The notes under the pieces: generated by a model
What the model was told of the DNA's origin: nothing
The model's database searches: none
Seen by the model: the letters and a program-made list of their open reading frames with translations, nothing else
Part shown: positions 27,216-41,085 of the stretch, in pieces
How the letters are laid out: each line of letters starts with the position of its first letter
How positions within the stretch are numbered: the stretch's first letter is position 1
Position numbers and translations under genes: made by a program
Source of the DNA: Myxococcota bacterium
GTDB taxonomy: Bacteria; Myxococcota_A; UBA9160; JAFDET01
Direction: 5' to 3'
NCBI GenBank assembly: GCA_028278065.1
Contig: JANQFA010000193.1
Coordinates: 1 to 64,000 of the forward strand
Length of the DNA stretch: 64,000 nt

Positions 27216-28733
27216 CTAGTGCCCGGTGTCCGCCTTGGCGACCTTGGGCTTGGGGAGGACCTTCGTCCACTCGGCGCCGCCATCGGTGCTGCGCATGACC
27301 AGGCCGCGCTGGCCCACGATCATGCCGGTGCGGCCGCTCGGCTCGAAGTCGACGTCGCGCATGAAGGTGAAGATCTCCGGGACCTTCACGTCCTCGAGCC
27401 CGGTCCAGGTGCGGCCGCCGTCGGCCGACTGCCGCGCGTTGCCCTTCTCGCCCAGCGCCAGCGCGGGTCGAGTGCCGGGCGCGACCGCGTAGAGGGCCTG
27501 CTTGGTTCCCGAGTCCCCGTAGCGCCAGGTCTTGCCCCCGTCATCGGAGACCAGGACCACGCCGCCCAGTCCGGTGATGATCCCGTTGTCGTCGTCCTTG
27601 AAGCGCACGCGGAAGAGATACGGGTTCTGGGCGATGTCGATGGTCACCTGGGACTCGTCGGCCCGGCGACCGTCGAGGTAGCGCTGCAGGAAGGTGGGGT
27701 CGTCCTCGAGGAAGTCCTCGTAGTCCCAGGGCGGCGTTCCGCGCAGGCGCAGGCGGTCGGACAGGATCCCGGTCTCCTCGACGATCGCGCGGACGCCCAC
27801 CGAGCGCGAGTCCAGGATGTCGAAGAGCGCCGACGGGTCACCGTCCTCGACGAAGGCGCGCAGCTCGCGCGGCGACGCGTACGCCTCGATCAGGATGTTC
27901 AGGTGCTCCTGGGTGAGGATCGCCTCGACGAACTTCTTGAGCCGCTCCGCGTCCTCGTCCGAGATGTCCGAGTCGTCGAAGCCGAAGGTGATCGGCTCGA
28001 ACTTCTCGGTGCCGACGATCTCGGCGGGCGTCCAGTTCTTGCCGTGGTCGTCGGACCAGAAGATGTAGCCGAACTCGCCCACGATCCAGCAGCGCGTGCT
28101 CGGCGCCGGCCGGCAGTAGATGTCGTTCAGCGAGACGTCCTCGAAGACCATCTCGCCGGCGCGCACCCGCTCCTGCTCGGGCGGCGAGAGCCACACATAC
28201 TGGGGGTGCGTGGTGTCGATGGTGAGCGAGTAGTCCTGCCAGGACGCCCCGCCATCCTCCGTCTTGATGCGCGAGCCCCAGACCCCGATGGCCCAGGCGG
28301 TGTTGGCGTCGAGGGCCTGGACCGAGAAGAGGTGGAAGCCCGAGTCGCTCTTGGGGTTGTCCTGGGGAGCCCAGGTCCGGCCGCCGTCCCGGGTCCGCAC
28401 GATCTTGCCGAGCTGTCCGACGATCCAGCCCCGCTCTTCGTCGGCCATGCTGACGTCGTAGAGGAGCGGGCGCTGTGCGGGAGCGCGGCCGTCCCAGGCG
28501 ATCTCGCGCTCGCTCCAGCTGTCGCCTCCGTCGTCACTGGCGTAGATGGCGCTGCGGTAGCCGACCGCGACCGCCGTCTTCTCGCTGGGCACGGACACCG
28601 CGAAGAGATGGTCGTACAGGTCGATCTCGGCCGGGTCGGCGTGGGATTCGAAGTGGACGTCGTGACAGGCGACCGATCCGATCCCGAGGGCAAGGACGAA
28701 CGCGGTCAGCCGGGCGCAGCTTCGGGGGGTCAT
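27216..28733 (-). CDS. Ycf48/BNR-repeat-like lipoprotein
   Basis: Repeated SDDGGDSW, TRDGGRTW, TEDGGASW, SDDGGKTW, STDGGAEW; lipobox-like GIGSVAC. Confidence 0.85.
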   Translation of the reverse strand: MTPRSCARLTAFVLALGIGSVACHDVHFESHADPAEIDLYDHLFAVSVPSEKTAVAVGYRSAIYASDDGGDSWSEREIAWDGRAPAQRPLLYDVSMADEERGWIVGQLGKIVRTRDGGRTWAPQDNPKSDSGFHLFSVQALDANTAWAIGVWGSRIKTEDGGASWQDYSLTIDTTHPQYVWLSPPEQERVRAGEMVFEDVSLNDIYCRPAPSTRCWIVGEFGYIFWSDDHGKNWTPAEIVGTEKFEPITFGFDDSDISDEDAERLKKFVEAILTQEHLNILIEAYASPRELRAFVEDGDPSALFDILDSRSVGVRAIVEETGILSDRLRLRGTPPWDYEDFLEDDPTFLQRYLDGRRADESQVTIDIAQNPYLFRVRFKDDDNGIITGLGGVVLVSDDGGKTWRYGDSGTKQALYAVAPGTRPALALGEKGNARQSADGGRTWTGLEDVKVPEIFTFMRDVDFEPSGRTGMIVGQRGLVMRSTDGGAEWTKVLPKPKVAKADTGH

Positions 28734-28818
28734 CGAACACTCCCTGTGAGGGTCGGGACACGGTGGGGCCATGAGGCGCATGCGCCCCCGGCCCCACCGG
28801 CAGGATCATGGCACCGGA

Positions 28819-30129
28819 CTAGCGGCCGCGGGTGAGCCGTCCGATGTCGATGTAGCGCCGCACCTTGCCCGTGCTCTTGAGCGGCGTTCCGTTGCTGTCC
28901 CAGAACTCGATGCGGTTGCCCGTACCGGTCTGCACGTTGACGATCATGTCGGAGACCACGCGCAGGTCGCGCGGCGTTTCGACGCCCTTCCATCCCTTGT
29001 ACCAGTCGGGATCCGACTCGCTCCAGCGCTTGTTGTGCCAGAGGATCTTCCAGAGCTCCTCCTTCTGGTCGTAGGCGAAGGAGTAGAGCGGCACGAGGGT
29101 CTGCTTGTCGAGGTAGATGTCCTTGTGGTGGTACGGGTGATCGTCGTTCTTGGGCTTCATCCGCACCTTCACAGCGTTGCGCACCTCCCACAGGTCGTCC
29201 GCATACGACAGGCCGTACGGCCCGAAGTTGTGCTCCTTGTTGTAGGGATAGGCGCGCACCTTGGAGTTGGTCGGCGCGATCATCTCCATCTCGCCGAGGC
29301 ACTCCCAGCTGTACTGGGGAACGATGCCCGCGAAGCTGCGCAGGTCGTCGAGGGTGAAGTCGGTGCCCGAGACGGCGTCGGTGCGCTGGGCGGCCGAGAT
29401 GCGACGGACACGGCGCATGGTGGGCAGGTAGACCCAGGTGTCGTCGTTCTTCGCGTCCGCACGCGCATTGTCCGATGCCTTGTAGCGGTAGGTCATCAGG
29501 TTGATGCCGCGCGCGTCGAACGGAGCGGTCACCTCGATGCCGAACGCGCTCTTGCGGCGCTCCTTGCGGAAGAGGTCGCCCTGCTGCTTGTCGAGGAGGT
29601 CCTTCTCCACCCGGTGGGCGAGCTGGACGGTTCGCGAAGTGCCCTCGTAGTAGAGGGGCAGCTGCTCACCGCGGTCCCAGTAGGAGTAGAAGAAGTGGGC
29701 GAAGGCCCCATCCCCCGACCAGGCGTAGTCGAAGTTCCACATGATCTTCGTCCCGGCCTGGGGATCACCCTTGCAGTCGATCTCTTCCATGGGGAAGGGC
29801 TGGCCGGCGGTGTAGTTCTCGAGGCTGTCATCGGGACCGATGCGCGCCTGCCCCTTGTACGCCTCGGTGGCGTCCTGGTACTCCTTCGCCGGGGTGTAGT
29901 CGGCGTGGAAGGGACCGATCTCGAGGCGCATGCCCTCGTAGAAGAAGAAGTCGCGGTTCGCCCAGAACTCGGGCGGCAGGTACTTCTTCAGGGAGTCCAG
30001 CTTGTCGAAGGTGATGGTGTCGCCTTCCTTGAAGGCCGGACCGGTGACTCCCGCGTCTTCCTGCGCCGACGCCGGCGCAGCGAGGGCCAGCGCGATGGCG
30101 GGGATCAGCAGGCGGTGGATTCGGATCAT
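28819..30129 (-). CDS. DUF1329 family outer-membrane lipoprotein-sorting-like protein
   Basis: Signal peptide; TWVYLPTMRRVRRISAAQRTDAVSGTDFTLDDL. Confidence 0.9.
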   Translation of the reverse strand: MIRIHRLLIPAIALALAAPASAQEDAGVTGPAFKEGDTITFDKLDSLKKYLPPEFWANRDFFFYEGMRLEIGPFHADYTPAKEYQDATEAYKGQARIGPDDSLENYTAGQPFPMEEIDCKGDPQAGTKIMWNFDYAWSGDGAFAHFFYSYWDRGEQLPLYYEGTSRTVQLAHRVEKDLLDKQQGDLFRKERRKSAFGIEVTAPFDARGINLMTYRYKASDNARADAKNDDTWVYLPTMRRVRRISAAQRTDAVSGTDFTLDDLRSFAGIVPQYSWECLGEMEMIAPTNSKVRAYPYNKEHNFGPYGLSYADDLWEVRNAVKVRMKPKNDDHPYHHKDIYLDKQTLVPLYSFAYDQKEELWKILWHNKRWSESDPDWYKGWKGVETPRDLRVVSDMIVNVQTGTGNRIEFWDSNGTPLKSTGKVRRYIDIGRLTRGR

Positions 30130-30338: not shown

Positions 30339-30377
30339 TTGTGCCCGGCGCGGACCGGCCGTACGGTGCGAGGGCCC
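30339..30377 (+). promoter_or_regulatory. candidate -35/-10 (TTGTGC-17-TACGGT) 10 nt before ATG of ABC1 kinase gene
   Basis: TTGTGC ccggcgcggaccggccg TACGGT gcgagggccc ATG. Confidence 0.45.
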
Positions 30378-31775
30378 ATGGATCCCGCCCTCGATTCCAC
30401 TCCGCCCCGCCCGCTTCCGGCGGCCGGCGGTGCAGCGCGCCGATGGCCGTCGGCCCGGGCGCTGGGGCTGGTCCAGGGCGCGATCCTGCTCCGCGAGGGC
30501 CTGGTGTGGGCGTGGGTCGCAGGCTGGGGACGCCTCGGCGACCTCTTCGCGACGAGATCCCGGCGCTCCGAGCGACGCGAGGCGCGCCGGGCGCGTCATC
30601 TGCAGCGGCTGGCCGTCGCCCTCGGGCGCCTGAAGGGCGCCTTTGCCAAGGCCGGGCAGTTCGCCGCACTCCGCTACGACGCCCTGCCGCCGCCGGTCCG
30701 GGGCGCCCTGGCCGAGCTCCAGGATCGGGTCCCCCCACTGCCCTTCGAGGCGATCCGGGCGGTGGTGGAGGAGGAGCTCGGTGAGCCGATCGAGGGGCGC
30801 TTCGCCCGCTTCGATCCCGAGCCGCTCGGGGCCGCCTCGATCGCCCAGGTGCATCGCGCGTGGCTCCCGGATGGGCGCGAGGTGGCCGTGAAGGTGCAGT
30901 ACCCCTGGCTGGCCGAATCGCTCCCGGCCGACCTGGCCATCGCCCGACGCCTGGTCCGGCTCTGGACCCGCGGCCGGCGCGGGCCCGTCGACTCGAGCGA
31001 GCTCTTCGACGAGTTCGCCCGCGGCCTCTCCGAGGAGCTCGACTTCGTCCGCGAGGCCGACGTGGCCGAGGAGATCGCCGCCAACCTGGCCGGAGAGACC
31101 GGGATCGTGGTGCCCCGCGTCCACCGCGAGCACTCGGCGCGGCGCGTCCTCACCCTCGACTACCACCGCGGCGCGCGCGTGACCGACCGTGCGGCCCTGG
31201 CTCGCGCGGGGGTGGACCCGGCGGACGTGCTGCGTCTCCTCGCCCGCGCCTACGCCCAGCAGGTCTTCGGCGACGGGCTCTTCCACGCCGACCCCCATCC
31301 CGGCAACCTGTTCGTCGCCGACGAGCCGGCGCCCGGCGGTGGACCCCGGGTGGTCTTCGTGGACTTCGGCCTGGCGCGACGCCTCGATCCGGAGCTCCGC
31401 GCCGCGATGCGGCGCGGCGTCTACGCGCTCCTGCAGCGGAGCCCCGAGACGTTCGTATCCGAGATGGGAGCCGCCGGGATGATCGAGGCCGGGCGTGAGG
31501 AGGACGTGCAGCGCTCGGTGGAGGCGATGTTCGCGCGCATCGCCAGCGCCGGAGCGGCGCCGCTGGGCCTGTCGGGAGGCCAGGTCCTCGACCTCAAGGA
31601 CGAGGCCAAGGCGCTCCTCGAGGAGACGCCGGGGCTGCGCCTCCCCAACGACCTCCTCCTCTGGGCGAAGACCCTCTCCTACCTGCTGGCGCTGGGCCAG
31701 GAACTCGCCCCGGAGGTAGATGTGGTGCGCCTGGTGGTGCCGCACCTGCTCCGGTTCCTGGCGGAGCGTGACTGA
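30378..31775 (+). CDS. ABC1/UbiB (ADCK)-like kinase
   Basis: KGAFAKAGQFAALR (KxGQ), PLGAASIAQVHRA, FHADPHPGNLFV, VVFVDFGLARRL. Confidence 0.92.
   Translation: MDPALDSTPPRPLPAAGGAARRWPSARALGLVQGAILLREGLVWAWVAGWGRLGDLFATRSRRSERREARRARHLQRLAVALGRLKGAFAKAGQFAALRYDALPPPVRGALAELQDRVPPLPFEAIRAVVEEELGEPIEGRFARFDPEPLGAASIAQVHRAWLPDGREVAVKVQYPWLAESLPADLAIARRLVRLWTRGRRGPVDSSELFDEFARGLSEELDFVREADVAEEIAANLAGETGIVVPRVHREHSARRVLTLDYHRGARVTDRAALARAGVDPADVLRLLARAYAQQVFGDGLFHADPHPGNLFVADEPAPGGGPRVVFVDFGLARRLDPELRAAMRRGVYALLQRSPETFVSEMGAAGMIEAGREEDVQRSVEAMFARIASAGAAPLGLSGGQVLDLKDEAKALLEETPGLRLPNDLLLWAKTLSYLLALGQELAPEVDVVRLVVPHLLRFLAERD

Positions 31776-31878: not shown

Positions 31879-31895
<17 letters not shown>
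31804..31895. repeat. 23-bp tandem repeat, about four copies, each containing the argG stop (GCTAGC)
   Basis: tcgcggctagcggcggccggggg units at 31804, 31827, 31850, 31873. Confidence 0.95.
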
Positions 31896-33078
<1,183 letters not shown>

Positions 33079-33115
33079 CGTCCGCACCTCCTCGTGGCGC
33101 GGGAAGGTAGCGTCT

Positions 33116-33181
33116 CGTCAGGCCTGGGGGAGACGAGCCGCGCCGGCAGCGCTGCGTCAGGCCAGGGGCAGACGAACCGCG
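33116..33181. repeat. 27-bp direct repeat (39-bp period) duplicating the 3' end and stop of the PAS gene
   Basis: cgtcaggcctgggggagacgagccgcg (33116) and cgtcaggccaggggcagacgaaccgcg (33155). Confidence 0.85.
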
Positions 33182-34101
33182 GTCGTGACCCCCGCGACCG
33201 GATCGGCGACCCGGGCGACCGAGCCGCCGAGGGGCTCGGTCACCGCCGAGAGCGACGCGGGCGCGCACTCGTCCTCGGGCGCGAAGCTCCTCGCGTCGTC
33301 CGGGGGCACCTCGGTGAACGAGAAGAGCACCCCCGCCTTGAGCGCCTTCGCCGTCCAGGTGAAGCGGCTGCCCTCGGGCGCCGCCTCGAGCCGCTCGCGG
33401 GCGAAGCGCACGAAGGCATCCACCAGACGGCCCGGCTCGCCCTTCACCGCGGGCAGAGCCGCGGGCAGCAGGAGCTCGAGCTGGTGCCCCGCGACGCGCG
33501 CGGTGCGGGCGGCGGCGTCGCCCACCTCGTGGGCGCCCGCCAGCGCATCCGCCACCGCCTGGGCGGGACGCTCGGAACGCTGCGCCACCGCGTCGCGCAG
33601 CTCGTCGCTCCACTTGCGCAGGCGCTCGGACGCACGGAGTCCCGTCTCCACCTGCGCGCGAAAGCGCTCCGCCCGGCGCCCGCCGGTCTGCTCCAGCATG
33701 CTGTCGAGGGCCGAGGCGAGCTCGGCGAGGGGCTCCTGGATCTCGCGGTGGTAGGAGAGCACGCGCTCCCCGGCCGGCTCCTCGAAGAACAGGAAGATGA
33801 TCCCGACGTTGGCACCTTCGGCTGCGATCGGCGCCGCCGAGGCGGCGTACGCATGGTCGCCCTCGCGCAGCCGGAAGCGCACCGTGCGCCCCTCGCGACA
33901 GACCCGGTCCGTGGCGGCCAGCACCACCTCGCGGGCGCCGCCGGCGAAGATCTCGGCGAGCGGGCGTCCACGCGTCTCGCCCTCGCAGGTGTCGAAGGCC
34001 TCGCCGAACGCCGGATTGACGTACACCGCCTTGCCGTCCGGATCGGCGACGGCGACCGGAGCCGGCAGGAAGGGGAGGAGCGAGCTTCCGGGCGAGGTCA
34101 T
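33157..34101 (-). CDS. PAS-domain protein with degenerate histidine-kinase-like C-terminus
   Basis: PAS (PAPVAVADPDGKAVYVNPAFGEAF); H-box-like SYHREIQEPLAEL; no recognisable N/G1 boxes. Confidence 0.65.
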   Translation of the reverse strand: MTSPGSSLLPFLPAPVAVADPDGKAVYVNPAFGEAFDTCEGETRGRPLAEIFAGGAREVVLAATDRVCREGRTVRFRLREGDHAYAASAAPIAAEGANVGIIFLFFEEPAGERVLSYHREIQEPLAELASALDSMLEQTGGRRAERFRAQVETGLRASERLRKWSDELRDAVAQRSERPAQAVADALAGAHEVGDAAARTARVAGHQLELLLPAALPAVKGEPGRLVDAFVRFARERLEAAPEGSRFTWTAKALKAGVLFSFTEVPPDDARSFAPEDECAPASLSAVTEPLGGSVARVADPVAGVTTAVRLPLA

Positions 34102-34670
34102 TCAGCGGCCACGACGCCCGCCTCGAGGAGACCGGACAGGGTGCGAAGGGTGTCGAAGGGGTCGAGTCCCGACAGGGAGATCAGGTCGTTCACCGTGGTA
34201 TGGCCGTCCACGAGGGAGAGCAGGAAGCCGGTCGTGGCCGGCAGGTTGAAGCCCATCAGCTGGCGGTCGTTCAGCCGCACTGCGGGCACCGCCTCGAGGC
34301 CGCCGACCCGCTCCCGGTAGCGGGTGAGGAGCTTGCTGCGCACCATCTCGAGGTAGGTCTCCACCTCGATCTGCTCGCCGTCGCGGCGCGCCAGGGTCTC
34401 GAACAGCTCGAGCGCGGCCTCGAGATGCCCTTCGCGCATGAGGCGCATGGCGTCCTCCGCCAGGTCCGGCCGGCGCTCGCGCGCCGGCGCCTCCGGCGCG
34501 CCGCCGTCCTCCTCGAGTGCCTCGAGGTAGTCGCGAGCCTCGGCGTTCTCGGGGTCGAGGAAGAGCGCCTCGCCCCAGCAACGCCCCGCCTCCGCCGCGC
34601 GGCCCTCGCCGTAGTGGTCGAGGCCCGCCTGGAGGAGGCGTGCGACCTGTTCCTGCCGGGATTCCGCCAT
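34098..34670 (-). CDS. TPR protein with C-terminal GFLLSxxDGHT module
   Basis: TPR-like helices; GFLLSLVDGHTTVNDLISLSGLDPFDTLRTLSGLLEAGVV. Confidence 0.65.
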   Translation of the reverse strand: MAESRQEQVARLLQAGLDHYGEGRAAEAGRCWGEALFLDPENAEARDYLEALEEDGGAPEAPARERRPDLAEDAMRLMREGHLEAALELFETLARRDGEQIEVETYLEMVRSKLLTRYRERVGGLEAVPAVRLNDRQLMGFNLPATTGFLLSLVDGHTTVNDLISLSGLDPFDTLRTLSGLLEAGVVAAE

Positions 34671-34679
34671 CGCCCCCGC

Positions 34680-36251
34680 CTACTCCTTCGTCGCGACCTC
34701 GTAGAGCTCGTGGTCCTCGATGATGCGCTCGATCTCGTCCTGCGAGAGCGTGCCCGTGGCGTTCACCGTGATCGACTGCTCCTTGCCCGTGGCCAGGTCG
34801 GTGGCCGAGACGCTGACGATGCCGTTGGCATCGATGTCGAAGCACACCTCGATCTCCGGCTCTCCCTGGGGCGCCTTGCGGATGCCCGACAGGATGAACT
34901 CGCCGAGCAGGTCGTTCTCCGCCGCAGCCTCGGCCTCGCCCTGCAGCACGCGGATCTTCACCGCGCTCTGCCCGTCGCGCGTCGTGGTGAACGTGTGCGT
35001 CTTGCGCACCGGCACCGTCGTGTTGCGCTCGATCAGCTTGGCGAAGTGGCCCCCCACCGTGGCGATGCCCAGGGAGAGCGGCGTCACGTCGAGCAGCAGC
35101 AGGTTCGACTCGTCCGAGGTGAGCGCCTCGCCCTGGAGGGCCGCGCCGATCGCCACGACCTCGTCCGGGTTGACGCCCTTGTGCGGCCCCTTGTTGAAGA
35201 ACTCGCCCACGGCCTTCTGGATGAGGGGCATGCGGGTCTGGCCGCCGACCAGGATGACCCGGTCGACGTCGCCGGGCTGGAGCCCCGCGTCGGCGACGCA
35301 GGCTTCCACGGTCTTGAGGGTCTGGTTGACGAGGCCGTGCACCAGCGCCTCGAGAGTCGCGCGATCCATCTCCAGCTGGAGATGGCGCGGCCCCGAGTCG
35401 TCGCTGGCGATGAACGGCAGGCTGATCTCGGTCTTCTCGCGCTCGGAGAGATCGCACTTGGCCTTCTCCGCGGCGTCCTTCAGGCGCTGCAGGGCCATCG
35501 CGTCCTCGCGCAGGTCGATGCCTTCGTTCTCCTCGAACTTCTCGAGCAGGTGGGCCACGATCATCCGGTCGAAGTCCTCGCCCCCGAGGAACGTGTTGCC
35601 GCCGGTCGCCAGCACCTCGATCACGCCGTCGCTCATGTCGAGCACCGAGATGTCGAACGTGCCGCCGCCCAGGTCGTAGATGGCGACCTTCTCCTCCTCG
35701 CGGTGCCCCGCGCCGTAGGCCATCGCCGCGGCCGTCGGCTCGTTGATGATGCGCAGCACCTCGAGGCCCGCGATCTTCCCGGCGTCCTTCGTGCACTGTC
35801 GCTGGGTATCGTTGAAGTACGCCGGGACGGTGATCACCGCGTCGGACACGGGTTCGCCGACGTACTCCTCGGCCACCCGCTTCATCTCGCGCAGGATGAT
35901 GCCGCCGATCTCCGGACAGGTGAACGTCTTGCCGGCGATCTTGATGCGCGGATCGTCGTTGGCCCCGCGCACGATCTCGTAGGGGCAGAGGTCGATGGCC
36001 TTCTGCACCTCGGGCGCGTCGAAGCGACGTCCGATGAGACGCTTGGAGGCGTGCACCGTGTTGCGCGAGTTCGTCACCGCCTGACGCTTGGCCAGGTGGC
36101 CCACCAGACGCTTGCCGTCGTGCGAGATCGCGAACATCGAGGGAGTGGTCCGGTACCCCCCGGCGTTCGGGATCACCGTGGGCTGCCCGTTCTCGATCAC
36201 GGACACGCACGAGTTGGTGGTACCCAGGTCGATTCCGATCACGCGACTCAT
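34680..36251 (-). CDS. Hsp70/DnaK-family chaperone lacking the C-terminal alpha-helical lid
   Basis: [43 protein letters not shown]; complete SBD-beta; ends at [22 protein letters not shown]. Confidence 0.95.
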
Positions 36252-36284
36252 CGTCTTCCTCCCCTCCACCCGGAGGTGGCTCCC

Positions 36285-37601
36285 CTAGAGCGACTTCAGG
36301 GCCTGCTTGGCCTCGAGATCCCTGGGATCCAGGCGCAGCGCCGTCTTCAGCTCGCGCCGCGCGTTGGCCTTGAGACCGGCGGCGGCGTAGATCTGCCCGA
36401 GCCCTCGGTGGTACTCGGCCTTGTCGGGATCCGCCTCGACGGCCCGCATCGCGTACTCCTTGGCGCGGTGCAGGTCGTCGGCCGCCAGCCAGGCCAGCTT
36501 CGCGGCGACGTGGTTGGCCTCCGGATCGTACGGGCGGAAGATGAGCGCCTCTTCGTAGATGCGCAGCGCATCCTTGCGATCCCGGAACGAGAGCGCGCTG
36601 TCCGCCTCCTTCATGAGCTGGGCGAAGCGGATCTCGTGGGCCTGGGCCTGGACCTCGCCGAAGCGCTCGCGGTAGAGCGCGCTCTTGGGGTCGTAGGCGA
36701 CGGCGAGCCGAAGGCTGGCCGCAGCCTCCAGCCAGCGCTCATCGCTGACCGCAGCCATCGCGGCCTCGAAGAAGCTCTTGGCCTTGGCCTTGCGCTTGGC
36801 GATGAGCCGGCCGAGCGGGCTGAAGGGGGACAGCGCACGCTTGCGCCGGCGCTCGGCGCGCTCGGACGCGGCCTTCGGGTCGGCCGAGTCCGCACCCTCC
36901 ACCGGCGCCGCCTCGGCGTCGGCGCCCAGCGAGCGCTCCATCTCGGCGCGCACCGTGGGGTCGCTCATCAGCTCGTAGGCCTCGACCACCTTGCGGAAGA
37001 TGCGCTCCAGGGGCTCCTTGAACGGCCCGATGTCGCGTCGGAACCAGCGATCCGGATGGAACTCCTTGGAGAGCTGGAAGTAGGCCCTCTTCACCGCGCG
37101 GGCATCGGCGTCGCTCGCGACTCCGAGAATCTCGGCGTAGGGCCGCTCGAGCCGCTCGTGGAAGTCGAGGATCGCCTGCTGCGCCTCCTCGGGGATGTCG
37201 AGGCCGGGATCGAGCGCGGGCAGGTCGGACGCGACAGCCGGAGAACCGGCCTCGGTCGCGGCGGCGGCGGACTCGCCTTCGGGTGACGACGCGTTGGCCT
37301 CGAGCCGGGGCGGAGCTCCCGCTCTCGTGGCGGATGCCCCGTTGACACGCTCCGTCGCCGGGGGCCCCGCCTTGCTCCAGACGACGACACCCGCCTCCGC
37401 CCAGCGCGCCAGGCACAGATCGACATCGTGGGGAGGCAGACCGGCCAGCTGCGAGAGCAGGTCCTTGGGTGTGTGGCCGTCGATCCGCGAGAGCAGGAAT
37501 CCCTCCTGGGGAGACAGGTCCAGGCGCGTGAGATCGCAGTCGGGCGCGAGCGCCGGCACGCGCACGTCCTTCCGATCTCCTGCCGCATCCGCCGAAGACA
37601 T
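36285..37601 (-). CDS. J-domain/TPR co-chaperone with N-terminal GFLLSxxDGHT module
   Basis: J domain PYAEILGVASDADARAVKRAYFQLSKEFHPDRWF (HPD), C-terminal TPR repeats, N-terminal GFLLSRIDGHTPKDLLSQLAGLPPHDVDLCLARWAEAGVVV. Confidence 0.88.
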   Translation of the reverse strand: MSSADAAGDRKDVRVPALAPDCDLTRLDLSPQEGFLLSRIDGHTPKDLLSQLAGLPPHDVDLCLARWAEAGVVVWSKAGPPATERVNGASATRAGAPPRLEANASSPEGESAAAATEAGSPAVASDLPALDPGLDIPEEAQQAILDFHERLERPYAEILGVASDADARAVKRAYFQLSKEFHPDRWFRRDIGPFKEPLERIFRKVVEAYELMSDPTVRAEMERSLGADAEAAPVEGADSADPKAASERAERRRKRALSPFSPLGRLIAKRKAKAKSFFEAAMAAVSDERWLEAAASLRLAVAYDPKSALYRERFGEVQAQAHEIRFAQLMKEADSALSFRDRKDALRIYEEALIFRPYDPEANHVAAKLAWLAADDLHRAKEYAMRAVEADPDKAEYHRGLGQIYAAAGLKANARRELKTALRLDPRDLEAKQALKSL

Positions 37602-37766: not shown

Positions 37767-38684
37767 TCAGCCGGTGAGGAGGCGCTCCAGGATGGCCTTC
37801 TGTGCGTGGAGCCGATTCTCGGCCTGGTCGAACACGATCGAGCGCGGGCCGTCCAGGACGTCGTCGCTGATCTCCTCGCCCCGGTGAGCCGGCAGGCAGT
37901 GCAGGATCCAGGCGTCCGGCGCGCCACGCAGCAGCTCCGCGTTCACCTGGTAGTCGGCGAAGATGCGGCGTCGCTCCTCGGCCTCGTCCTCCTGGCCCAT
38001 GCTCGCCCACACGTCGGTGTAGACGAAGCCCGCGCCCTCGACCGCCTCCCGCGGGTCGGCGCTCCAGGCGATCCTCGCACCGCTGGCCGCCGCCAGGTCC
38101 CGGGCCTGGGCCCACACGTCAGCGGGTACCCGGTGGCTCTCCGGCGTGGCCAGGCGTACCTCGACCCCGAGAACCGCGCCCGCCAGCACCAGCGAGCTGG
38201 CCACGTTGTTGCCGTCGCCGATGTACGCGATCACCGCCCGCTCCAGGTCGGCCCGCTCGGCCACGGTCACGAAGTCCGCCATGGCCTGGCACGGGTGCAG
38301 CTGGTCGGTGAGGCCGTTGATGACGGGGATGCTCCCCTCCCGGGCCAGCTCGCGCACCAGGTCGTGGCTGAACGTGCGCGCCACCAGGGCGTCGACCCAG
38401 CGCGAGAGGTTGCGCGCCACGTCGCCGCCCGTCTCGCGGCTGCCGATTCCCACCTGCTCGGGACGCAGCAGGATGGCGTGCCCCCCGAGCTGGGTCATGC
38501 CCGCCTCGAACGTGACGTGCGTGCGCAGCGACGGCTTCTCGAAGTACATCGCCAGAGTGCGGCCCTGCAGGGTCTGCGGTCGCTCGCCGCGCTTCCACAG
38601 ATCCTTCAGCTCGCGCGCGCGATCGAGGAGCGCGCGCAGCTCCTGTGCGGGCCAGTCGGCAACGCTGATGAAGTCCTTGGGCAT
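37767..38684 (-). CDS. argF: ornithine carbamoyltransferase
   Basis: MYFEKPSLRTHVTFEAGMTQLGG; ARTFSHDLVRELA; ILHCLPAHRGEEIS. Confidence 0.92.
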   Translation of the reverse strand: MPKDFISVADWPAQELRALLDRARELKDLWKRGERPQTLQGRTLAMYFEKPSLRTHVTFEAGMTQLGGHAILLRPEQVGIGSRETGGDVARNLSRWVDALVARTFSHDLVRELAREGSIPVINGLTDQLHPCQAMADFVTVAERADLERAVIAYIGDGNNVASSLVLAGAVLGVEVRLATPESHRVPADVWAQARDLAAASGARIAWSADPREAVEGAGFVYTDVWASMGQEDEAEERRRIFADYQVNAELLRGAPDAWILHCLPAHRGEEISDDVLDGPRSIVFDQAENRLHAQKAILERLLTG

Positions 38685-38689
38685 CGGAT

Positions 38690-39544
38690 TCACCTCGCGA
38701 TCAGGGTGCCGACGCCACCGTCGGTGAAGATCTCGAGCAGGATGGCGTGCTTGATGCGCCCGTCGATCACGTGGGCGCGCTCGACGCCGCCCTCCACGGC
38801 GGCCATGCAGCACTCCACCTTGGGGATCATGCCCTCGCGGATGGTGCCTTCGTCGATGAGCTTCCTGGCCTCCTCCACGGAGAGCTGGCCGATGAGCTCG
38901 CCGTCGGCGCCCTCCACGCCCTCCACATCGGTGAGCATGAGGAGCTTCGCGGCGCCCAGGGCGCGGGCGATGGCGCCCGCCGCATCGTCGGCATTCACGT
39001 TGTGCGAGACCCCGTCGCCATCCACGCCCACCGGCGCGACCACCGGGACGAAGCCCGCGTCCGCGGCGGCCATCACCGCCGCGGGGTCCACCGCCGTCAC
39101 CTCGCCCACGCGTCCGATGTCCCGCCCGTCCACCGTCTTGCGTCGCACGCGCAGCATTCCGGCGTCCTTGCCGGAGAGACCGACGGCCGAGCCTCCGCCG
39201 CGGTTGACCAGCTGCACGATGTCCTGGTTGATCTTGCCGCCGAGGACCATCTCCACCACTTCCATGGTCTCGTCATCCGTGACGCGCAGGCCGTTCACGT
39301 AGCTGGATTCCTTGCCCAGGCGTCGGAGGGTCTCCTTGATCTGCGGGCCGCCGCCGTGCACCACCACCGGCCGGACACCGATGTACTTGAGGAGCACCAC
39401 GTCCACGGCGAACTGGGCGCGCAGGTCGTCGTCGATCATCGCGTGGCCGCCGTACTTGATGACGAAGGTCTTGCCCCGGAAGCGCTGGATGTAGGGGAGC
39501 GCTTCGACCAGGACGGCGGCCTTCTGGATCAGCGACTGGACCAC
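38690..39544 (-). CDS. argB: acetylglutamate kinase
   Basis: TFVIKYGGHAMID; VVVHGGGPQIKETL; NVNADDAAGAIA; KVECCMAAVEGGV. Confidence 0.97.
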   Translation of the reverse strand: MVQSLIQKAAVLVEALPYIQRFRGKTFVIKYGGHAMIDDDLRAQFAVDVVLLKYIGVRPVVVHGGGPQIKETLRRLGKESSYVNGLRVTDDETMEVVEMVLGGKINQDIVQLVNRGGGSAVGLSGKDAGMLRVRRKTVDGRDIGRVGEVTAVDPAAVMAAADAGFVPVVAPVGVDGDGVSHNVNADDAAGAIARALGAAKLLMLTDVEGVEGADGELIGQLSVEEARKLIDEGTIREGMIPKVECCMAAVEGGVERAHVIDGRIKHAILLEIFTDGGVGTLIAR

Positions 39545-39576: not shown

Positions 39577-41085
39577 CTACGCGGGGTCGCGCGACTCCCG
39601 GCGGGCGCGCGCGACCTCCTCGATCGAATCCACGAGGCTACGGTACAGGAGCACGTTGCGCACGGCCGTCGAGAGGGCGGCGGTGAGCACCTCGCCCGCG
39701 CGCGGCGAGGTGCGCGCGGGAGGGGCGAGGAAGGCACGGAAGACGCCCAGGGTCTTTCCGCGGAAGCGCATGGGCAGACACAGGAACGGGCCGGGCTCCC
39801 CCGCGGCGAGCGTGTCGATCTCCGGATCGAAGCGCGGGTCGCGGGACGGATCGTCGGTCGCCACCGGCCGGCCCGTCTCGAGCACCGTTCCCGTGAGGCC
39901 GCGTCCCGTGGCGAGGCTCTCGCGGTCGCTGGCCTCCCCGGGGCTCCAGGCGCCCTCGCAGGTCAGCCCGCCCTCCGGGTCGCGCAGATGGAGCGCAACG
40001 CACTGGGCGCCGAGCGCCTCCCCGGCGGCAGCGAGCGCCCCGGCGACCACACGCACCGGCTCCACTTCCGCCACGACCGCCTCGCACACGGCCCGCGCCA
40101 TCTCGCCGTCCTCGGATCCGCCCGCCTCGTCGAGGGGCAGGGTCGTCGCCTCGGGTGCCGACACGGAGGGGCCGGCCGCCGCGGCGCCGCTCTCCTCGGC
40201 GCTGAGCAGCGCGGCCGCCTGCTGCGCGAGGACGCGAAGCAGGAGCAGGTCTTCGGGGTAGGGTGTGCCGCCCTCGCGCGGGTCCGTGGAGCAGAGCACA
40301 CCCAGGGCCCGGTCTCCCGCCACCACCGGCGCCACCACGAAGCCGGTCGAGTCGTAACGATCGCGGGTCTTGCGCTCCCGGAAGCGCGGGTCGGTGGTCA
40401 CGTCGCTCACCCACATGGGCTCGCTGCGCGCGAGACACACGCCGGCGACGCCCTCCCCCACCGGCACCGGGTCCATCTCCGCGGCGGGCAGCTTGCTGCC
40501 GGTGGCCGCGGCAACCCGCAGCTCCGAGCCCGTGTCGTCCAGCAGCATCAGCGAGGCCTTGTCGGCACCCAGCACGTCGGACACCGTCTGTGCCACGGCG
40601 GAGTGCAGCTCGGCCGAGTCGCCACCGCTGCGCGCCAGGGTGACCAGACGCGCCGCACCGTGCTGCAGCTGGGCCAGCCGGGAGCGCAGGGCGTCGGCGG
40701 TGGCTGCGTGTTCGTACGTCTCGAGTGCACGCCGGACCGCCAGGGTGAGCTCCTCCTCGTGGAGCGGCTTGGCCAGGTAGTCGGAGGCACCCTGGCGCAG
40801 GGCGTCGATCACGTACGACTGGTCCTGGTGGGCGGACAGGATGATGACGGGGAGCGCGCGCCGCTTCTCGCGGATCTTGCCGAGGACCTCGAGACCGTCC
40901 ATGCCCGGGAGGCGCACGTCCAGCACGACCGCGCCGATGGTGGGCTCGTCCACCATCTCCAACGCCTCCGCGCCGTCCGCGGCCAGCAGGCACTCGAGGC
41001 CTGCTCCCGACAGCGCGTCCTGGATCGCCTCTCGGAAGAAGCGCTCGTCGTCCACGACGAGCACACGGAAGAACCGGCCCTGCAT
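39577..41085 (-). CDS. response regulator with REC and two GAF-like domains
   Basis: VLVVDDERFFREAIQDAL...GAVVLDVRLPGMDG...IILSAHQDQ; two GAF-like regions (DVLGADKASLMLLDD...; PFLCLPMRFRGKTLGVF). Confidence 0.88.
   Translation of the reverse strand: MQGRFFRVLVVDDERFFREAIQDALSGAGLECLLAADGAEALEMVDEPTIGAVVLDVRLPGMDGLEVLGKIREKRRALPVIILSAHQDQSYVIDALRQGASDYLAKPLHEEELTLAVRRALETYEHAATADALRSRLAQLQHGAARLVTLARSGGDSAELHSAVAQTVSDVLGADKASLMLLDDTGSELRVAAATGSKLPAAEMDPVPVGEGVAGVCLARSEPMWVSDVTTDPRFRERKTRDRYDSTGFVVAPVVAGDRALGVLCSTDPREGGTPYPEDLLLLRVLAQQAAALLSAEESGAAAAGPSVSAPEATTLPLDEAGGSEDGEMARAVCEAVVAEVEPVRVVAGALAAAGEALGAQCVALHLRDPEGGLTCEGAWSPGEASDRESLATGRGLTGTVLETGRPVATDDPSRDPRFDPEIDTLAAGEPGPFLCLPMRFRGKTLGVFRAFLAPPARTSPRAGEVLTAALSTAVRNVLLYRSLVDSIEEVARARRESRDPA

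Follow-up and report, generated by a model that had tools for sequence, protein, structure and literature searches.

The chaperone module and its genes

We analysed a stretch of 64,000 nucleotides from a Myxococcota bacterium (assembly GCA_028278065.1, contig JANQFA010000193.1, positions 1 to 64,000; the window), in which four consecutive minus-strand genes encode a co-chaperone with a J domain and tetratricopeptide repeats (TPRs), an Hsp70 without a lid, a TPR protein and a PAS protein. As read from its sequence, this module is a real, conserved Hsp70 cassette, and the strongest points for it are the fixed loss of the lid, a private domain shared by the two co-chaperones, and a loop change that runs through the whole family. 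The open reading frames (ORFs) and Pfam domains agreed with the four genes named in the original prediction, which was made from the letters alone, and no grpE was found in the operon, as it had said. The features of the module are as follows.

36285..37601, minus strand: J/TPR co-chaperone, 438 aa (ORF; Pfam DnaJ and TPR; 23-member alignment; model pLDDT 84)
37371..37562, minus strand: winged-helix-like domain copy 1, N-terminus of the J/TPR protein (homologous to copy 2)
36942..37133, minus strand: J domain of the J/TPR protein (Pfam DnaJ; HPDR invariant in the 23-member alignment)
34680..36251, minus strand: lid-less Hsp70, 523 aa (Pfam HSP70; nucleotide-binding domain (NBD), linker, beta part of the substrate-binding domain (SBD-beta), helix A stub, short tail)
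36153..36161, minus strand: G31-G32-Y33 signature in the loop equivalent to the GrpE-contact loop of E. coli DnaK
34683..34709, minus strand: Hsp70 C-terminal tail ELYEVATKE (conserved in relatives; associated with presence of the TPR gene)
34098..34670, minus strand: TPR protein, 190 aa (TPRs and C-terminal winged-helix-like domain; alignment; model pLDDT 86)
34101..34295, minus strand: winged-helix-like domain copy 2, C-terminus of the TPR protein (profile; fold comparison)
33157..34101, minus strand: PAS protein with degenerate kinase remnant, 314 aa (Pfam PAS_4 only)

The J/TPR protein consists, from N to C, of the winged-helix-like domain, a J domain with its HPD motif (Pfam DnaJ, E 5e-12) and the TPRs. 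Pfam gave no match to the DnaJ C-terminal or zinc domains, and TPRs stand in their place, so the protein is not a class A or B DnaJ. The TPR matches of the smaller TPR protein fall below the Pfam cut-off. The Hsp70 start at 36251 agrees with the alignment of relatives, and a longer GTG ORF also exists. The J/TPR and Hsp70 genes are separated by 33 nt and the Hsp70 and TPR genes by 9 nt, and the overlap between the TPR and PAS genes is 4 nt, where 3 bp had been given originally. A search with PADLOC gave no match, and a defence system was rejected.

An Hsp70 that has lost its lid

The module Hsp70 was aligned to residues 1-522 of E. coli DnaK, with the interdomain linker and SBD-beta present, and its Pfam HSP70 match stops at profile position 520 of 599 (from position 1), so the lid is missing. 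The original prediction that the protein is lid-less was thus borne out, and the short length is uniform in the order to which this genome belongs: nearly all complete members have 521-524 aa, with 137 residues after the linker (range 129-145), and family f12 has 138. The corresponding number is 219 in the grpE-linked DnaK of the same genome and about 213-223 in lidded cassette Hsp70s of other classes. Truncation of the lid by misassembly or frameshift was rejected, since the same length recurs in dozens of genomes.

The catalytic residues D8, K70, E171 and T199 are invariant in 18/18 proteins of the lid-less order clade, as are the J-contact residues R167, N170, Q378 and D393, and most J-contact residues are kept overall. 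The lobe IIB loop is also present. In the peptide pocket of the lid-less clade, A429 is replaced by T and V407 mostly by H. The NBD is changed at residues 31-33, in the loop with which E. coli DnaK contacts GrpE: cassette Hsp70s, lidded or not, carry D33Y in 37/37 and E31G in 35/37 cases with G32 kept, whereas E31 is kept in 33 of 35 other DnaKs. Literature searches for a GrpE-loop mutant and for a lid-less DnaK returned no useful match.

A maximum likelihood tree of Hsp70s (74 rows, midpoint root) gathered the remaining Hsp70s of the phylum, together with the general DnaKs from other phyla, in one branch (100/100), and all cassette Hsp70s fell outside it. The Hsp70s without a lid, from the order and from f12, formed one group (100/99). 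Because there is one lid-less clade, and because cassette Hsp70s in other classes are lidded, the tree suggests that the lid was lost once, in a cassette that was already established. The module Hsp70 scores below the TIGR02350 cut-off and above that of PRK00290.

The same genome has a canonical grpE-dnaK-dnaJ cluster on a separate contig (C60) and another full Hsp70 on C64. The separate cluster together with the tree, in which the module Hsp70s stand apart from all sampled DnaKs, rules out that the module Hsp70 is the housekeeping DnaK. This is what the original prediction had proposed; it had also advised looking for a full-length dnaK-dnaJ-grpE elsewhere in the genome, and with this cluster found the module does not hold the only dnaK. 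Orthology to SglK is not supported, since SglK is preceded by a grpE and is without a J neighbour (PMC11019930). A further, divergent Hsp70 of this genome (locus L080, 9365-12406, G000:C270) has a 385-residue proline-rich stretch after the linker where a normal lid would be, and is adjoined by a gene for a small J protein (182-aa frame); this long-branched paralogue had no sure place in the tree.

The C-terminal tail of the form [DE][LI][YF]E[VI] was found in 32/33 genomes with the TPR gene and in 8/31 without it. Counted by genus, the numbers were 15/16 and 4/17 (Fisher test, 6e-5), with the reservation that the genomes are not independent. EEVD-like docking of this tail on the TPR protein is only a lead, as f7 and f11 have the tail without the TPR gene and genus g16 has the gene without the tail. 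In family f12 (L197, L201, L264) the tail of the lid-less Hsp70 is different and reads EVAVKG or EVAVRG.

A winged-helix-like domain shared by the two co-chaperones

The N-terminal 60 residues of the J/TPR protein are homologous to the C-terminal 60 of the TPR protein (BLASTP, 45% identity over 60 aa), and the winged-helix-like domain has 65 residues. A profile built from both copies (A4) was run on this genome and nine relatives. The count was exactly two in this genome, each copy within the module, and again exactly two in G040, G225, G084, G372 and G125, where both copies lie in the cassette region. One copy each was found in G010 and G150, a cassette copy and a further weak match outside it in G348, and five copies in G233. 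The J protein of f12 (L197, L201, L264) matches the J/TPR profile only from about position 78-105 on and seems to be without the domain.

Outside the cassette, 32 of the 35 genomes reached via general dnaK loci gave no match to the domain. The other three were metagenome-assembled genomes (MAGs). One, labelled 'Deltaproteobacteria', had three copies, of which two lie 4.9 kb from each other; a Desulfobacterales MAG and an Oscillochloris MAG each gave a single weak match. A signalling-type protein of Desulfobacterales (L304) carries a sequence-similar domain in a different protein context, behind a region that is presumably DUF4388/PATAN-like. The predicted structure of copy 2 resembles the winged helix of GATOR1 (NPRL2/NPRL3; Z 10.7, rmsd 1.9 A, 68 residues); the fold is alike, the protein contexts are different. 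Foldseek with the TPR protein model found no match at E < 0.001, and the winged helix came from a second look with VIA.

The PAS protein

In Pfam the PAS protein matches PAS_4 only, with no histidine-kinase or HATPase match. The H-box-like position has no His in any of 26 aligned PAS proteins, the sequence is well conserved in the PAS part alone, and six f8 genomes have lost the kinase remnant. By its sequence the protein is a degenerate kinase and not an active histidine kinase, which bears out the term pseudo-kinase used originally.

Conservation and the arginine cluster

A J/TPR homologue is present in 72/79 genomes of the order, and the seven that lack one include four small genomes (2.2-2.8 Mb). 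We read 37 neighbourhoods of the order from raw DNA, and the J/TPR gene was followed by the Hsp70 gene in all of them, in the setting hslU-argB-argF-[module]-argG. After the Hsp70 gene, in the 36 readable cases (the window counted), TPR and PAS genes followed in 17, PAS alone in 9 and neither in 10; six loci without a matched TPR gene were inspected directly. A whole-genome search with the TPR alignment gave clear matches in about half of the order. Cassettes of the form J/TPR-Hsp70-TPR also occur in other classes of the phylum, often beside arg genes and with a lidded Hsp70, and no PAS homologue was matched in them. The suggested co-occurrence of the genes therefore holds for the J/TPR-Hsp70 pair across the order and for J-Hsp70-TPR across the phylum, but the complete set of four was seen in only 17 of the 36 readable neighbourhoods of the order. 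Likewise, the module was first described as signal-linked; a PAS gene is indeed in the operon, but only position ties it to the Hsp70. Related-locus searches gave no match with the TPR protein and only general dnaKs with query A2. At locus L081 (12430-13570, family f7) neither the TPR nor the PAS gene is present, and a DNA-glycosylase-like gene, assigned by eye, lies before argG.

The module lies inside an arginine cluster, with argF, argB, a response-regulator (RR)-GAF-GAF gene and hslU upstream and argG downstream. The immediate flanks are as follows.

31879..33087, minus strand: argG, downstream flank (Pfam; downstream neighbour in many relatives)
37767..38720, minus strand: argF, upstream flank (NCBIfam ornithine carbamoyltransferase; argF or argB precedes J/TPR in relatives)

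The RR-GAF-GAF protein (39577-41085), whose gene stands upstream of argB in most of the order's neighbourhoods, is a possible signalling partner. An opposite-strand ABC1-type kinase gene and two more genes (30339-31775 and 27216-30129) also lie near the cluster in many relatives. The original prediction had mentioned neither the arginine setting nor the shared winged-helix-like domain, the changed GrpE-contact loop or the lidded ancestry.

Comparison with known systems

The module shares with E. coli DnaK-DnaJ-GrpE the NBD, linker and SBD-beta, the catalytic and most J-contact residues, and a J domain with HPD. It differs in the missing lid, in E31G/D33Y and in having no grpE in the operon, and its J protein has TPRs and the winged-helix-like domain where DnaJ has zinc and C-terminal domains. 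Eukaryotic DNAJC3/p58IPK and TPR adaptors such as Hop also combine J and TPRs in one protein or provide a TPR partner of Hsp70; in the module, however, the J domain precedes the TPRs, the tail is not EEVD, and there is the extra winged-helix-like domain. Nostoc DnaK1-DnaJ3, which acts in type IV pilus (T4P) and polysaccharide functions, likewise pairs an additional, dedicated DnaK with a J protein of its own, but GrpE participates there, and the available part of the report mentions no TPR-J protein, private domain or lid loss (PMC9239167).

In Myxococcus xanthus, the tag of the J protein MXAN_3015 is next to that of the Hsp70 MXAN_3016, and MXAN_2745 is near MXAN_2747, which has a much shortened lid; deletions of MXAN_3016 and MXAN_2747 reduced sporulation and oxidative resistance (PMC8265645, PMC11019930). 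MXAN_3016 has no C-terminal tail, as we found for lidded cassette Hsp70s of f44. From this missing tail and from the neighbour logic, MXAN_3015/3016 is a likely but unproven counterpart of the cassette. In the parts of these papers that were consulted, no TPR gene, shared domain or linkage to arg genes is mentioned for either M. xanthus pair.

How the module might work

We lean towards the view that the module serves the order as a dedicated second Hsp70 system, driven by adaptors and with fast, weak client binding, and the following mechanism is inferred. The J/TPR protein would bring a particular set of clients to the lid-less Hsp70 through its TPRs and winged-helix-like domain, and its HPD motif would trigger ATP hydrolysis. 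The Hsp70 would hold peptides weakly and release them fast, or it would act on segments of bulky, partly folded proteins. Because absence of the lid should give such a weak hold and fast release, the Hsp70 would remodel or control specific complexes and would not rescue unfolded chains. The TPR protein, with the same winged-helix-like domain, would probably serve the same partner as a further adaptor or in hand-off, and the PAS pseudo-kinase would be an accessory input of this lineage.

Several points weigh against this view. Several families do without the TPR and PAS genes, and loss of the TPR gene occurred in several lineages. The two winged-helix copies are not an obligate pair, since G010 (f7) carries the domain in the J/TPR protein alone and G150 (f12) in the TPR protein alone, and the domain might only mediate dimerisation. 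Alternatively, the lid loss could mark an Hsp70 with a regulatory role and hardly any peptide binding. Also, MXAN_3015, the possible counterpart, was reported to bind the essential DnaK1 (PMC11019930), so the specificity of the J protein may not be private.

It is doubtful that the module is a redundant general chaperone, that is, a duplicated lid-less DnaK which helps the housekeeping system under stress and stays in the arginine operon by chance. The intact catalytic residues and most of the J-contact residues, also intact, would suit such a role, as would the mild sporulation and oxidative-stress phenotypes of MXAN_3016 (PMC8265645), but the distinct clade, its own loop signature and pocket residues, the fixed gene order and two co-chaperones with a domain found only there in this genome speak against it. 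An Hsp70 cycle independent of GrpE is unlikely too. In such a cycle, G31/Y33 would abolish or alter GrpE binding, the TPR/winged-helix protein on the short tail would be the exchange or hand-off factor, and a client or scaffold would pass from J to Hsp70 to TPR via the shared winged helix.

It is quite unlikely that the module is dedicated to enzymes or assemblies encoded in the surrounding arginine/HslUV cluster. In the order, argB or argF lies directly before J/TPR wherever the contig reaches, arg genes are near the cassette in f12, f27, f44 and f21, and hslU is near in several of these and in f18. However, the arg enzymes are conserved in bacteria without the cassette, and argB, argF and argG were not matched beside it in f14, f17, f15 and f19; as the setting is not universal, it may reflect co-regulation or inherited position and not function. 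We consider least probable a regulatory, non-folding Hsp70 that senses signals by way of the PAS protein and governs a pathway through binding, in outline like StkA in the control of exopolysaccharide in M. xanthus. The PAS pseudo-kinase in the operon has a conserved PAS domain, and there are known Hsp70s that act in the control of polysaccharide or pili (PMC4319316, PMC9239167), but PAS is absent from a number of order members and unmatched in relatives of other classes, and the catalytic features of the J protein and Hsp70 are kept.

To our knowledge, lid-less DnaK has been mainly a laboratory construct for studying how the lid controls client release. Here a lid-less Hsp70 has apparently been fixed by nature across an order, beside two co-chaperones with a private shared domain. 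The cassette would provide a naturally occurring case for finding out what an Hsp70 is capable of once its lid is gone, and how bacteria assemble specialised chaperone circuits from paralogues, and with the GrpE-contact loop changed in a phylum-wide family, the question of its nucleotide exchange factor becomes directly testable.

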